64,000 nucleotides of DNA from Agromyces lapidis (GTDB taxonomy: Bacteria > Actinomycetota > Actinomycetes > Actinomycetales > Microbacteriaceae), in assembly GCF_009749405.1 (NCBI RefSeq), contig NZ_WBIQ01000007.1, positions 248,001-312,000 on the forward strand, read 5' to 3'. The notes under the pieces were generated by a model. That model was not told the origin of the DNA. It ran no database searches and saw nothing but the letters and a program-made list of their open reading frames with translations. This document shows positions 1 to 5,110 of this stretch, piece after piece (within the stretch, counting starts at the first letter, position 1; the number at the start of each line of letters is the position of its first letter). The position numbers were made by a program, and so were the translations under genes.

Positions 1-573
<573 letters not shown>

Positions 574-580
574 GCCGCCG

Positions 581-1837
581 GTGCGCTACGCGCCGGCGAT
601 CCTCGTCGGCCGACTCACCCGATTCGCCGCCCGGCTGCGCAAGCCGGGCGGCGGTTCGGCCGTCCCAGGGCTCGTCGTCAACCGCATCGCTCCGAACTAC
701 CTGAAGCGCACCCTCTCGGGCTTTCCGCAGGGGCTCGTGGTGGTCTCGGGGTCAGCGGGCAAGTCGACGACGACGAAGATGCTGGTCGCGATCCTCCGCG
801 AGCACGGCGTCGACGTCTTCACGAACCCGTCGACGGCGAACATCAGCCAGGGGCTGACCTCCGCCCTCCTCGAGCAGGCCGACTGGCGAGGCCGAGTACC
901 CGGCGATGTCGCCGTGCTCGAGATGGACGAAGGCCATGGCGCCCTCGTCATGCAGGGCGTCGACGCTCGCGTCGTCGCGCTCACGAACGTGATGGTCGAC
1001 CAGATCGACCGATTCCACGACTCCGAGATGGTCGCAGGCATGCTCGGCCGCATCGCGGCACGTGCGGGCGAGGCGGTCATCGTGAACGCCGATGACGCCT
1101 ACCTCGAGCGTCTGGCGGCGAAGCTGCGATCGGATGTCGCCGTCCACCGCTTCGGCGTCTCGCAGGCCGTGCTCGACTCCGCCCCTCGCGGGCTCGGCTA
1201 TACCGAGACCGCCGGGCGGCGACTCGCTGCAGGCGGCGGGCTCGTCATCGACGCTGTCGAGGGGCGAGAGGTCGTGCTCGACGACCGCGGCTCCGAGGTG
1301 CGGGCAGGGATTCCGGCCCGAGGCATCCACTACGCGGTCGACGCGGCGTGCGCCTACGAGACCGCGCGCGCCGTGCTCGGCGAACGTTTCTCGCGCGAGA
1401 CGGCCGCGATGGCCCTCAGCGCCATCCCGGCGGTCTTCGGGCGCGGCGAGCGCGTCACGGTGCGCGGCCAGGAGGTCGAGTTCGTGCTCGTGCAGAACCC
1501 GGCGAGCTATCAGCTCAACGTCGACAGCATCGAGCCCGGAACGAGCGACATCCTCTTCGCGATCGGCTCGGACGTGCGGGACCCCTCGTACTTCTGGCCG
1601 GCCGACGCGGCCTCGCTCGGGCGCGTGAAGATCGTCAGCGGGTCGAAGTCCGCCGAGGCTGCGCTCATGCTCGCCTACGACGGCGTCGAGATCGACCGGG
1701 TCGAGCCCGAGCTCGGGGTGGCCCTCGACGACTTCCTCGCTGCGCCCGCACCCGAGCGCGGCGTGAAGACGATCGTCTTCTCGGCCGACTCGATGCGCCG
1801 CACTCGCGCCCACCTCGGACTGACGGGAACGGAATGA
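581..1837 (+). CDS. murT: MurT-like Mur ligase family protein, zinc ribbon missing
   Basis: The product (418 residues, GTG start) is a Mur-ligase-fold ATPase of the MurT type. In the known MurT/GatD complex, MurT activates the alpha-carboxyl of D-Glu in lipid II as an acyl-phosphate and GatD supplies ammonia. Visible features are the P-loop GSAGKSTTTK near residue 57 (most MurT proteins have GTNGKTTT), the central NPST and EMDEGH segments, a QNPASYQLN segment matching the NPAGxNQ region, and SDVRDPSYFWPAD matching the DGRDVSWIWDxD segment that holds the interface aspartate. The Cys4 zinc ribbon of Staphylococcus MurT is absent, and the whole protein has a single cysteine. The stop codon overlaps the gatD start (ATGA), so the two are co-translated. 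The family assignment is firm. The exact reaction is uncertain because the partner lacks its catalytic cysteine. Confidence 0.85.
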   Translation: MRYAPAILVGRLTRFAARLRKPGGGSAVPGLVVNRIAPNYLKRTLSGFPQGLVVVSGSAGKSTTTKMLVAILREHGVDVFTNPSTANISQGLTSALLEQADWRGRVPGDVAVLEMDEGHGALVMQGVDARVVALTNVMVDQIDRFHDSEMVAGMLGRIAARAGEAVIVNADDAYLERLAAKLRSDVAVHRFGVSQAVLDSAPRGLGYTETAGRRLAAGGGLVIDAVEGREVVLDDRGSEVRAGIPARGIHYAVDAACAYETARAVLGERFSRETAAMALSAIPAVFGRGERVTVRGQEVEFVLVQNPASYQLNVDSIEPGTSDILFAIGSDVRDPSYFWPADAASLGRVKIVSGSKSAEAALMLAYDGVEIDRVEPELGVALDDFLAAPAPERGVKTIVFSADSMRRTRAHLGLTGTE

Positions 1838-2571
1838 CCCTCACCATCGTGTCGCTGCTGCCGACGCTGCAGAACACCAACGGCGACGCGCAGAACGCCG
1901 CAGTGCTCGCGCGGCGAGCGCGATGGGCGGGCCTCGAGGCCGAGGTCGTGGCGGTCGACGACCGCGCGGCGCTGCCCGAGCGGGTCGACGCGGTCGTGCT
2001 CGGTTCGGGCAGCGACGCCTCGCTCGAGACGAGCCGCGAAGCGCTGCTCGGCCTGCACGACGAGCTGCGACGCTGGGGCACCGAAGGCGTGCCCGTCCTC
2101 GCCGTCGGCACCGGTTGGGAACTGCTCAGCTGGGGCATCGAGACCGCCGGCGGGCGGAGCATCGAGGGCCTCGGCATCCTGCCCGGGCGCGCGGTGCCCC
2201 GCGACGGCCGGGTCACGGGCGACCTCGTCGTGAAGTCGCCGCTGTTCGGAGCCGTCGTCGGATTCGAGAACCACGCGCGCGACTATGTCGGCGCAGAGGG
2301 CTCGCCGCTCGGCCGTGTGCGCTCGGGCGAGGGCAACGGCCGCGACTCGGGCCAGGAGGGCGTCGTGATGGGCGCCGTCTTCGGAACCCACCTGCACGGG
2401 CCGGTGCTCGCGAAGAACCCCGCATTCGCCGATCACCTGCTCGGCATCATGGCCGAGCGGGCAGGACTCGCCTACGCCCCGGGCGAGCGCGCGGGCGAGG
2501 TCGACGGCTATGCAGCGGCGGCGCGTGCCGCGCAGTTGCGAGCGGCCGGCATCGAGGCGTCCACCGCCTGA
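1834..2571 (+). CDS. gatD: GatD-like class I glutamine amidotransferase lacking the catalytic cysteine
   Basis: The product (245 residues) aligns along its length with GatD, the glutaminase partner of MurT. It keeps GSGSD near residue 57, EGLGIL near 111, GFENHARDY near 143 and THLHGPVLAKNP near 185, including the catalytic-type His188. At the nucleophile elbow, where GatD has LTICGGYQFLG, this protein reads LAVGTGWELLS. The cysteine is replaced by Gly92 (codon GGC at 2107-2109) and the following Gln by Glu96. Without that cysteine it cannot hydrolyse glutamine by the normal mechanism. The frame is intact and co-translated with murT, so it is unlikely to be a decaying pseudogene. Inference: it may act as a structural subunit, or help attach an amino acid instead of ammonia to D-Glu. 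A perfect hairpin terminator follows. Confidence 0.85.
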   Translation: MTLTIVSLLPTLQNTNGDAQNAAVLARRARWAGLEAEVVAVDDRAALPERVDAVVLGSGSDASLETSREALLGLHDELRRWGTEGVPVLAVGTGWELLSWGIETAGGRSIEGLGILPGRAVPRDGRVTGDLVVKSPLFGAVVGFENHARDYVGAEGSPLGRVRSGEGNGRDSGQEGVVMGAVFGTHLHGPVLAKNPAFADHLLGIMAERAGLAYAPGERAGEVDGYAAAARAAQLRAAGIEASTA

Positions 2572-3017: not shown

Positions 3018-3023
3018 TAGGCT
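3018..3023 (+). promoter_or_regulatory. Probable -10 box of a leaderless parE transcript
   Basis: TAGGCT matches the actinobacterial TAnnnT -10 and ends 8 bases before the GTG at 3032. No ribosome binding site lies before that codon, so transcription may begin at the start codon. No good -35 is seen. Confidence 0.45.
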
Positions 3024-3031
3024 TGTTCGAC

Positions 3032-5110
3032 GTGAGCTCCGACTATTCCGCCCGCCATCTCTCCGTCCTCGAAGGGCTCGAGGCGGTGCGCAAGCGACCC
3101 GGCATGTACATCGGCTCGACCGACTCGCGCGGCCTCATGCACTGCGTCTGGGAGATCATCGACAACTCGGTCGACGAGGCGCTCGCGGGCCACGGCTCCG
3201 AGATCGGCGTGCTCCTCCATCACGACGGCAGCGTCGAGGTGCGCGACCGCGCGCGCGGCATCCCCGTCGACGTCGAGCCGAAGACCGGCCTCTCCGGCGT
3301 CGAGGTCGTGTTCACGAAGCTGCACGCCGGCGGCAAGTTCGGTTCTGGCTCGTACGCAGCCTCCGGCGGCCTGCACGGTGTCGGCGCGTCGGTCGTGAAT
3401 GCGCTCTCCGAGCGGCTCGACGTCGAGGTCGACCGCGACGGCAAGACGTGGGCGATGTCGTTCCATCGCGGCGAGCCGGGCATCTTCGCCGACACCGGCG
3501 CCCCCTCGCCCGATGCGCCGTTCACCCCCTTCGAGGAGCGCAGCGAGCTCCGCGTCGTCGGCAAGGTCAAGAAGGGCGTCACCGGCACTCGCATCCGCTA
3601 CTGGGCCGACCGGCAGATCTTCACGAAGGGCGCCGAGTTCCAGACCGATGAACTGCTCGGGCGCGCTCGGCAGACCGCGTTCCTCGTTCCGGGTCTCGCG
3701 ATCGACGTGACCGACGAGCGCGGCGAGACCCCGCACACCACCTCGTTCCAGTTCGAGGGCGGCATCTCCGAGTTCGTCGACCACCTCGCCCCCGACTCGG
3801 GCATCACCGACATCTGGCGCCTGAGCGGGGCCGGCAACTTCACCGAGACGGTGCCTGTGCTGAGCGAGGGCGGTGCGATGGTGCCCACCGAGCTCACCCG
3901 CACCTGCGACGTCGACATCGCCCTGCGCTGGGGCACCGGCTACGACACGGTCGTGCGCTCCTTCGTCAACATCATCTCGACGCCGAAGGGCGGCACGCAC
4001 CAGGCCGGGTTCGACCAGGGCCTCCTGAAGTTCCTGCGCCAGCAGGTCGAGCAGAACGCACGGCGCCTCAAGGCGGGCAACGACAAGCTCGACAAGGACG
4101 ACGTGCTCGCCGGCCTCACCGCCGTCATCACCGTCCGACTGCCCGAACCGCAGTTCGAGGGCCAGACGAAAGAGGTGCTCGGCACCCCCGCCGTGCGCAA
4201 CATCGTCTCGAGCGTGCTCGCGAAGGAGCTGGGCGCCCGGTTCGCCTCGACGAAGCGCGACGACAAGGCGCAGTCCGCGCTGCTGCTCGACAAGGTCGTC
4301 GCCGAGATGAAGTCGCGCATCTCCGCGCGGGCTCACAAAGAGACCCAGCGCCGCAAGAACGCCCTCGAGAGCTCGTCGCTGCCGGCGAAGCTCGTCGACT
4401 GCCGCTCGAACGACGTGGCGCACAGCGAGCTCTTCATCGTCGAAGGCGACTCGGCCCTCGGCACGGCGAAGCTGGCCCGCGACAGCGAGCACCAGGCGCT
4501 GCTGCCGATCCGGGGCAAGATCCTCAACGTGCAGAAGGCGAGCGTCGCCGACATGCTCGGCAACGCCGAATGCGCCTCGATCATCCAGGTCATCGGTGCG
4601 GGCTCCGGGCGCAGCTTCGATCTCGCGCAGGCACGCTACGGCAAGGTGATCCTGATGGCCGACGCCGACGTCGACGGCGCCCATATCCGAACGCTGCTGC
4701 TCACCCTCTTCTTCCGCTACATGCGCCCGATGATCGAAGAGGGGCGCGTGTTCGCGGCCGTGCCACCGCTGCATCGCGTCGTCGTGATGAACCCGGGCTC
4801 GAAGCCGAACGAGACGATCTACACGTACTCCGAGGCCGAGCTGAAGGGCGTGCTGGCGGGGCTCGACAAGCAGAAGAAGCGCTACCAGGATCCGATCCAG
4901 CGATACAAGGGCCTCGGTGAGATGGACGCCGACCAGCTCGCGACGACCACCATGGACCGCCGGCACCGCACGCTCCGCCGGGTCGGTATCGGCGACGCCG
5001 AGAACGCCGGGCGGGTCTTCGAACTGCTCATGGGCAACGACGTCGCCCCCCGCAAGGAGTTCATCATCGAGAGCTCCGACGCGCTCGAGCGCGACCGCAT
5101 CGACGCCTGA
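3032..5110 (+). CDS. parE: DNA topoisomerase IV subunit B
   Basis: This is the ATPase subunit of the type IIA topoisomerase that separates daughter chromosomes. The order is a GHKL ATPase domain (RPGMYIGSTD, EIIDNSVDEA, GGLHGVGASVVN), a transducer domain with the QTK motif (GQTKEVLG near residue 385), and a TOPRIM domain with LFIVEGDSALG and LMADADVDGAHI, ending in YKGLGEMDADQL. It is about 692 residues long, normal for ParE, and lacks the insert seen in some GyrB proteins. Being paired with a nearby GyrA/ParC homologue next to sigA is the usual actinobacterial topoisomerase IV setting. I chose GTG 3032 (VSSDYSARHL) rather than TTG 3023 because a -10-like box overlaps the TTG and conserved sequence begins at SDYSARHLSVLEGLEAVRKR. 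It converges on parC with a shared terminator. Confidence 0.95.
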   Translation: MSSDYSARHLSVLEGLEAVRKRPGMYIGSTDSRGLMHCVWEIIDNSVDEALAGHGSEIGVLLHHDGSVEVRDRARGIPVDVEPKTGLSGVEVVFTKLHAGGKFGSGSYAASGGLHGVGASVVNALSERLDVEVDRDGKTWAMSFHRGEPGIFADTGAPSPDAPFTPFEERSELRVVGKVKKGVTGTRIRYWADRQIFTKGAEFQTDELLGRARQTAFLVPGLAIDVTDERGETPHTTSFQFEGGISEFVDHLAPDSGITDIWRLSGAGNFTETVPVLSEGGAMVPTELTRTCDVDIALRWGTGYDTVVRSFVNIISTPKGGTHQAGFDQGLLKFLRQQVEQNARRLKAGNDKLDKDDVLAGLTAVITVRLPEPQFEGQTKEVLGTPAVRNIVSSVLAKELGARFASTKRDDKAQSALLLDKVVAEMKSRISARAHKETQRRKNALESSSLPAKLVDCRSNDVAHSELFIVEGDSALGTAKLARDSEHQALLPIRGKILNVQKASVADMLGNAECASIIQVIGAGSGRSFDLAQARYGKVILMADADVDGAHIRTLLLTLFFRYMRPMIEEGRVFAAVPPLHRVVVMNPGSKPNETIYTYSEAELKGVLAGLDKQKKRYQDPIQRYKGLGEMDADQLATTTMDRRHRTLRRVGIGDAENAGRVFELLMGNDVAPRKEFIIESSDALERDRIDA

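Follow-up and report, generated by a model that had tools for sequence, protein, structure and literature searches.

A cysteine-less MurT/GatD pair at the sigA–parE locus of Microbacteriaceae as a candidate ligase for the B-type peptidoglycan cross-bridge

A 64,000-nucleotide stretch of the Agromyces lapidis genome (contig NZ_WBIQ01000007.1, positions 248,001 to 312,000 of the forward strand; hereafter the window) carries a murT-like and a gatD-like gene between sigA and parE, and the encoded GatD lacks the catalytic cysteine of the glutaminase. This loss is a family-wide trait of Microbacteriaceae, although the pair itself is not found in every genome of the family. In our view the pair is probably a ligase of the Mur type that couples an amino acid, in this organism probably L-2,4-diaminobutyrate (L-Dab), to the α-carboxyl of D-Glu and so starts the B-type cross-bridge of the peptidoglycan; what we infer in this reading is the substrate, the identity of the amine and the connection with the cross-bridge. 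A preliminary description based on the window alone had proposed that the pair was repurposed for amino-acid attachment, and the direction of that proposal was probably right. The finding is larger than was noted there: a family-wide dead GatD sits at a swap locus that also accommodates a second ligase family. The genes concerned are as follows.

1–573, forward strand: C-terminal part of the primary sigma factor gene sigA/rpoD, an open frame from base 1 with sigma-factor sequence; the gene begins before the window; left border of the interval
581–1837, forward strand: murT-like gene, class III, 418 amino acids, GTG start (PF08245, 4.7e-13)
1834–2571, forward strand: gatD-like gene without the catalytic Cys, 245 amino acids, ATG start (PF07685, 8.8e-19)
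3023–5110, forward strand: parE/gyrB-type gene, taken from the list of open reading frames (ORFs); right border of the sigA–parE interval

The window GatD aligns with Staphylococcus aureus GatD over most of its length (phmmer E 2.5e-30), and the motif LAVGTGWELL stands opposite LTICGGYQFL of the S. aureus protein, placing Gly92 where the nucleophilic Cys94 belongs. The catalytic His189 of S. aureus GatD is retained as H188, as is Arg126. The AlphaFold models of the pair are confident (mean predicted local distance difference test scores of 95 and 87), and the predicted structure of GatD matches S. aureus GatD (5n9m) with a template modelling (TM) score of 0.89 at 29% identity. Both genes are intact and overlap by ATGA at 1834–1837. 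The cysteine replacement, the retained histidine and fold, and the intact overlapping genes had all been described from the window alone, and all of them are confirmed. In the window MurT the ATP site is intact, with K61 of the P-loop, the Mg-binding E114 and D334 as the equivalent of Asp349, and its model, ranked by E-value, matches S. aureus MurT best among PDB structures (7q8e, E 2.3e-22, TM 0.50).

At the level of profiles, GATase_3 (PF07685) scored 68.3 bits against a cut-off of 27 and Mur_ligase_M 50 bits; MurT_C (PF08353) gave a weak 20.2 bits on the window MurT, with a cut-off of 25. The NCBIfam equivalog scores for MurT and GatD lie far below their cut-offs (85.1 and 83.4 against 800, 122.5 against 450, and 88.8 against 400 bits). 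The window genome contains a single MurT_C match and six GATase_3 matches, only the window one being GatD-like, and the other five GATase_3 proteins showed no match to the window MurT or GatD. Thus, with one MurT_C match and one GatD-like protein, no second murT/gatD was detected in this genome, a point on which the preliminary description had made its proposal depend. We propose that GatD is an inactive glutaminase retained as a partner subunit and that MurT is a ligase activating the D-Glu α-carboxyl.

To place the window pair in its family, we used a sample of 120 Microbacteriaceae genomes, 95 of which gave a GatD match. The sigA–parE locus was read in 124 family genomes, comprising 119 of the 120 (the locus of G057 lies off the contig) and five from an order-level sample; 99 of the 124 yielded a GatD that could be read and aligned. 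MurT is present at the locus in 89 of them, and the catalytic cysteine is absent from every one of the 88 GatDs read there; the GatD of G035 is cut off at a contig end. The residue at the cysteine site is Gly in 60, Ala in 15, His in 7, Ser in 3, Asn in 2 and Thr in 1, and the catalytic histidine of these 88 proteins is kept in 54 and replaced in 34. An ordinary GatD with both Cys and His is encoded elsewhere in the genome in 14 family genomes, the histidine being kept in all 14. Location follows the same division: the Cys-less pairs lie between sigA and parE, with one or both borders visible, and the Cys-bearing pairs lie elsewhere. Among the matches listed, Cys-less pairs are found in an Agromyces metagenome-assembled genome (MAG), Labedella populi, Amnibacterium setariae (two copies), Humibacter albus, Microbacterium sp. 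69-10, a Schumannella MAG and a further Microbacteriaceae MAG; the nearest named MurT to that of the window is the one from the Agromyces MAG, at 71%.

The pair is kept under purifying selection and is not decaying: across 10 close pairs the ratio of non-synonymous to synonymous substitution rates (dN/dS) was 0.09–0.21 for GatD and 0.01–0.13 for MurT. Since the cysteine is missing from all 88 locus GatDs of the family, a chance mutation is excluded, and together with the dN/dS values this uniform absence rules out a pseudogene or a mutation of a single strain. We consider it very improbable that the pair is a non-catalytic remnant or a regulatory subunit; a GatD without its Cys, and often without its His, would agree with such a fate, and the dN/dS values and the invariance of the MurT ATP-site residues that were checked argue against it.

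Outside the family the cysteine is retained. In the order-level sample (119 genomes, with at most 23 candidates scored per genome) it was kept in 39 of 39 strong GatD matches from outside the family, all of which were read; 33 of 35 order genomes picked for a doubtful or no strong GatD match had no MurT_C match. Eight of 14 named outside-family genomes had a MurT match and six had none, and the Cys was present in all nine pairs found, which belong to Ornithinimicrobium, Actinomyces urogenitalis, Pseudarthrobacter, Nocardiopsis, Glycomyces, Streptomyces, Actinomadura and Amycolatopsis (two pairs). We take the walls of these named genera, by genus, to be A-type. The preliminary description had expected cysteine loss to stay out of A-type species, and in the outside-family pairs read, from the order-level sample and from the named genomes, there was no such loss. 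At the class level (196 genomes) a class III MurT profile scored 570–615 bits in seven family genomes and at most 403 outside. The 63 outside matches of this sample yielded 13 GatDs that were read (five of them already counted), all with Cys; absence of a match is weak evidence here, with just nine candidates scored per genome and G426, a member of the window's genus, giving no match.

In family genomes without the pair the interval was read by anchoring on parE, and the anchor was found in 38 of 38. The genes found there encode a CofE-like glutamyl ligase (PF01996), an ATP-grasp protein (PF14397) and two alanine-racemase-like proteins. The CofE-like ligase replaces MurT/GatD directly after sigA, mostly together with the PF14397 gene. 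Over the 124 family genomes, MurT/pseudo-GatD is present in 89 (two of which also have CofE), CofE alone in 18 and neither in 17, which rules out that the pair is universal in the family. The 18 CofE-only genomes carry the ATP-grasp gene in 16 cases and racemase-like genes in 12, and none lacks both. MurT/pseudo-GatD and CofE tend to exclude one another (Fisher p 3e-10, relatedness ignored). G049 shows no border, and its CofE–MurT–GatD order is the same as in its sister G112. The intervals of the 17 genomes with neither are short in 15 (about 16–705 bases), and those of G045 and G108 hold about 3 kb of other sequence. An ordinary Cys pair is encoded elsewhere in 11 of the 17 genomes without a cassette, as against 3 of the 107 with one (kinship ignored). 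The interval also contains an EctB-type diaminobutyrate transaminase gene in G053 (L172, 603 bits) and G018 (L184, 602 bits), adjacent to the genes for the ligases, the NCBIfam cut-off being 552.

The one CofE-like protein that was scored against true CofE reached 24 bits, with a cut-off of 180.65. CofE-like cassettes occur, among the matches listed, in Microbacterium murale, Salinibacterium sp. NG253 and three Microbacterium-like records, one of which bears a Stenotrophomonas title. None of the cassette genes is present in the interval of nine named outside-family genomes with both borders visible (Arthrobacter, Pseudarthrobacter, Promicromonospora, Brachybacterium, Streptomyces, Glycomyces, Nocardiopsis, Actinobaculum and Pengzhenrongella). 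Taken over the family, the cassettes are built around either MurT/pseudo-GatD or a CofE-like ligase, to which an ATP-grasp gene, an apparently split racemase encoded by two genes and a diaminobutyrate transaminase may be added. In a wider reading, MurT and its dead GatD partner would be the enzyme so far missing from the B-type bridge, starting it by ligation of a diamino acid to D-Glu, and sigA–parE would be a swap site whose interchangeable cassettes set the wall type; this seems to us evenly poised.

In B-type walls the D-Glu α-carboxyl, the site that MurT/GatD amidates, carries the cross-bridge, and B-type peptidoglycan has reportedly been part of Microbacteriaceae taxonomy since Schleifer and Kandler in 1972. 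Mur ligases form an acyl phosphate on a carboxyl and couple it to an amino acid. In the mechanism that we propose, MurT/GatD would use ATP to activate the D-Glu α-carboxyl of a wall precursor, and the activated carboxyl would react with the amine of an amino acid rather than with ammonia. In the window organism this amino acid would most likely be L-Dab, and the reaction would begin the B-type cross-bridge from D-Glu to D-Ala by making its first bond. GatD would have lost glutamine hydrolysis, its old glutamine pocket may be open and position the incoming amine, and the protein would be retained because MurT needs its partner.

The S. aureus C94G mutant provides a laboratory counterpart, with the identical Cys to Gly change. 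According to PMC3266927, glutamine-dependent amidation is abolished in MurT/GatD-C94G and ammonia-dependent amidation is kept at pH 8.5 and not at 7.5, neither MurT nor GatD is active alone, and ammonia, ammonium and glutamine were the sole amine donors in the C94G assays. Mutants of S. aureus MurT/GatD are also treated in PMC6113224. Because the C94G pair keeps ammonia use and needs its partner, a pair with glycine at position 94 would be expected to act as a ligase that accepts a free amine.

Several wall structures bear on the amine. The respective papers give B2γ with D-Glu-L-Dab and no spacer for Agromyces aureus (PMC5217419), a chemically determined B2β wall with D-Ala-D-Dab for Rhodoluna lacicola, whose genome has 1,430,433 bp (PMC4156110), and a D-Dab bridge from D-Glu to D-Ala for Clavibacter michiganensis (PMC9603630). 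G009, taken as R. lacicola, has the Cys-less pair, with Ala for the cysteine and the histidine kept. The window genome encodes an EctB-type transaminase on another contig (G000:C13:87144-88379, locus L339, 624 bits) and a single PF00842 racemase, which are compatible with an L-Dab bridge in a circumstantial way; the links that R. lacicola, Agromyces and EctB provide to a bridge role are likewise circumstantial. A literature search, mostly outside subscription journals, found no paper naming genes for the B-type cross-bridge.

A number of observations weigh against a bridge role for the pair. G005 has a divergent Cys-less GatD (with Asn) outside the sigA–parE locus, G111 and Amnibacterium each have a second Cys-less copy off the locus, and G050, G060 and G113 contain a Cys pair and a Cys-less pair together. 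The 18 family genomes that use the CofE-like cassette mean that the pair is not in every presumed B-type organism, the wall being assumed from the family. Neither ligase is in the interval of 17 genomes, and Agrococcus lahaulensis, the wall of whose genus we take to be B-type, has neither cassette in the 3.2 kb visible and no MurT match (CofE elsewhere in the genome was not searched); another route must therefore exist if the model holds. In the stretch read, most MurT/GatD genomes, including that of the window, lack genes for a racemase, an ATP-grasp protein or a transaminase. Nor is the connection with racemases a simple one, since R. lacicola has D-Dab with one PF00842 racemase. Wall type could be matched directly to genotype in one case, R. 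lacicola, the others being assigned by genus or family. Finally, some D-Glu amidation was assigned by mass among the C. michiganensis muropeptides (PMC9603630).

This last observation is what would be expected if the pair still forms D-isoglutamine, drawing on free ammonia as C94G does at high pH, and the NH3-dependent amidation retained by that mutant (PMC3266927) points the same way. Ammonia was used by C94G at pH 8.5 and not at 7.5, however, and this explanation leaves the swapping with CofE-like ligases and the racemase and transaminase neighbours of relatives unaccounted for, as well as facing the rarity of ordinary Cys pairs alongside a cassette (the 3 of 107 given above). We regard it as unlikely, albeit the least so of the alternatives.

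Glycine is found beside D-Glu in B-type and in some A-type walls; Micrococcus luteus carries glycine on D-Glu, and Veillonella and Selenomonas carry cadaverine there. B-type walls also occur among Bacillota. The pair might add an amino acid such as glycine as a first spacer or as a plain substituent, with another ligase, for example the ATP-grasp protein, adding the diamino acid. ATP-grasp genes do accompany both cassette types. They are missing, however, from the stretch read of most MurT/GatD genomes, that of the window included, and the B2γ wall of Agromyces joins D-Glu to L-Dab with no spacer (PMC5217419), so that this second alternative also appears unlikely to us.

We think it improbable that the pair is a ligase for a non-wall substrate whose neighbours are unrelated or belong to some other small-molecule pathway. 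CofE proper does work on a cofactor; set against this are the close kinship to MurT, the restriction to a family known for its B-type wall, the genes for racemase-like proteins and a diaminobutyrate transaminase that relatives carry in the interval, and the anti-association with ordinary lipid II amidase genes. We continue to prefer a ligase that attaches an amino acid, probably L-Dab in the window organism, to D-Glu.

The history of MurT was examined in trees. The 86 class III sequences form one clade that adjoins the Cys-bearing pairs of the order, with a FastTree support of 0.94; an IQ-TREE run of 60 rows, 26 of them class III, gave that clade a Shimodaira–Hasegawa-like approximate likelihood ratio test (SH-aLRT) value of 100. 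Nine further Cys-less sequences, class IV, fall in a separate clade, with His or Gly at the cysteine site, Ile or Leu at the histidine site and no D349 equivalent in any of nine aligned MurT rows. The class IV loci are L097, L154–L161, L196–L201 and L204. The MurT trees suggest two independent Cys losses, in class III and in class IV; the approximately unbiased (AU) test does not reject the two classes as a single clade (p 0.0515). Within class III the P-loop Lys, the Mg-binding Glu and the D349 equivalent are present in 86 of 86 rows, as is His250, which together with Asp254 (83 of 86) makes up a class III signature. Position 254 is Asn in all 50 Cys-bearing pairs.

The preliminary description had also drawn on the lack of zinc cysteines in MurT. 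The window GatD contains no cysteine and the window MurT a single one (C257), hence MurT has no CxxC pair and no Cys4 zinc ribbon, and that part of the claim stands. Its meaning as a signal does not: CxxC is likewise lacking in the MurT of Cys-bearing pairs, in 11 of 14 within the family and in 25 of the first 27 order-level loci. Since most Cys-bearing pairs are also without the ribbon, its loss is no part of the signal, and we have ruled it out as a clue to changed function. The case for repurposing as an amino-acid ligase gains the family-wide Cys loss, the locus swap and the neighbouring genes of relatives, and loses the zinc ribbon.

Among known systems the closest is the MurT/GatD isoglutaminyl synthase of S. 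aureus, Streptococcus pneumoniae and mycobacteria, which shares the adjacent genes, the MurT ATP site with D349, the GATase_3 fold and the His and Arg residues. The window pair differs from it in the missing Cys of GatD, the missing zinc ribbon of MurT, the NCBIfam scores below cut-off and the fixed position between sigA and parE. Unlike the C94G mutant, the natural family has changed further, as seen in the H250/D254 signature of MurT. The next-best fold and profile matches to the window MurT are MurC–MurF and the archaeal pseudomurein ligases, which differ in possessing a UDP-binding domain at the N-terminus and in lacking a GatD partner. Retention of a glutaminase domain after Cys loss is known from the vertebrate carbamoyl phosphate synthetase I, which uses free ammonia; its synthetase is unrelated, and the amine there is still ammonia. 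The CofE-like ligase, in the same place directly after sigA, belongs to an unrelated family.

If the proposed function is correct, a glutamine amidotransferase would have lost its glutaminase and taken an amino acid as substrate, and concrete gene candidates for B-type cross-bridge formation would be at hand. The sigA–parE cassette may then serve as a genome marker predicting wall type in Microbacteriaceae. The data also counsel caution against annotating Cys-less pairs as D-isoglutamine-forming.

The racemase-like genes of the interval show complementary losses. AlrA has the VSYG tyrosine motif in 31 of 35 sequences and the pyridoxal phosphate (PLP)-lysine motif in none of 35; AlrB shows the reverse, 34 of 36 sequences having the lysine motif and none of the 36 the tyrosine motif, with a looser pattern giving a short tyrosine-like match in 4 of 36. 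These counts leave out one mis-labelled frame of L043. The residues in question presumably correspond to Lys39 and Tyr265 of Alr. Adjacent AlrA and AlrB with complementary losses were seen at L162, L164, L174, L177, L023, L076 and others. This pattern suggests that the two form an obligate heterodimer and share a single active site. We dropped the idea that a racemase pair indicates a D-residue in the bridge, R. lacicola having D-Dab with just one PF00842 gene. The PF00842 racemase is a single gene in the window genome and in five relatives, which fits L-Dab and proves nothing.

The EctB-type gene of the window genome was considered as a member of an ectoine operon, and this was abandoned when its neighbours proved different: they encode a CHY zinc finger protein, an Orn/Lys/Arg decarboxylase-like protein, a cupin protein and a LysR regulator. 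Among the eight other ORFs scanned at L339 there was no ectoine gene, the rest of the genome not having been searched for them.

Some further loci deserve mention. CofE-like loci are L162–L177, L183, L184, L208, L210, L216, L234 and L368. L211 (JACEFY010000023.1), titled Stenotrophomonas maltophilia P13, contains a Microbacteriaceae-like sigA–CofE–parE locus and is probably a contaminant or a mislabelled record. In G013 (L093), a genome of 927,303 bases that we take to be Tropheryma whipplei, the sole PF00842 match lies in an AlrA/AlrB-like pair beside a Cys-less murT/gatD. G023, G031, G065, G095, G100 and G010 have no split pair in the interval read and carry two tandem PF00842 matches about 1.1 kb apart.

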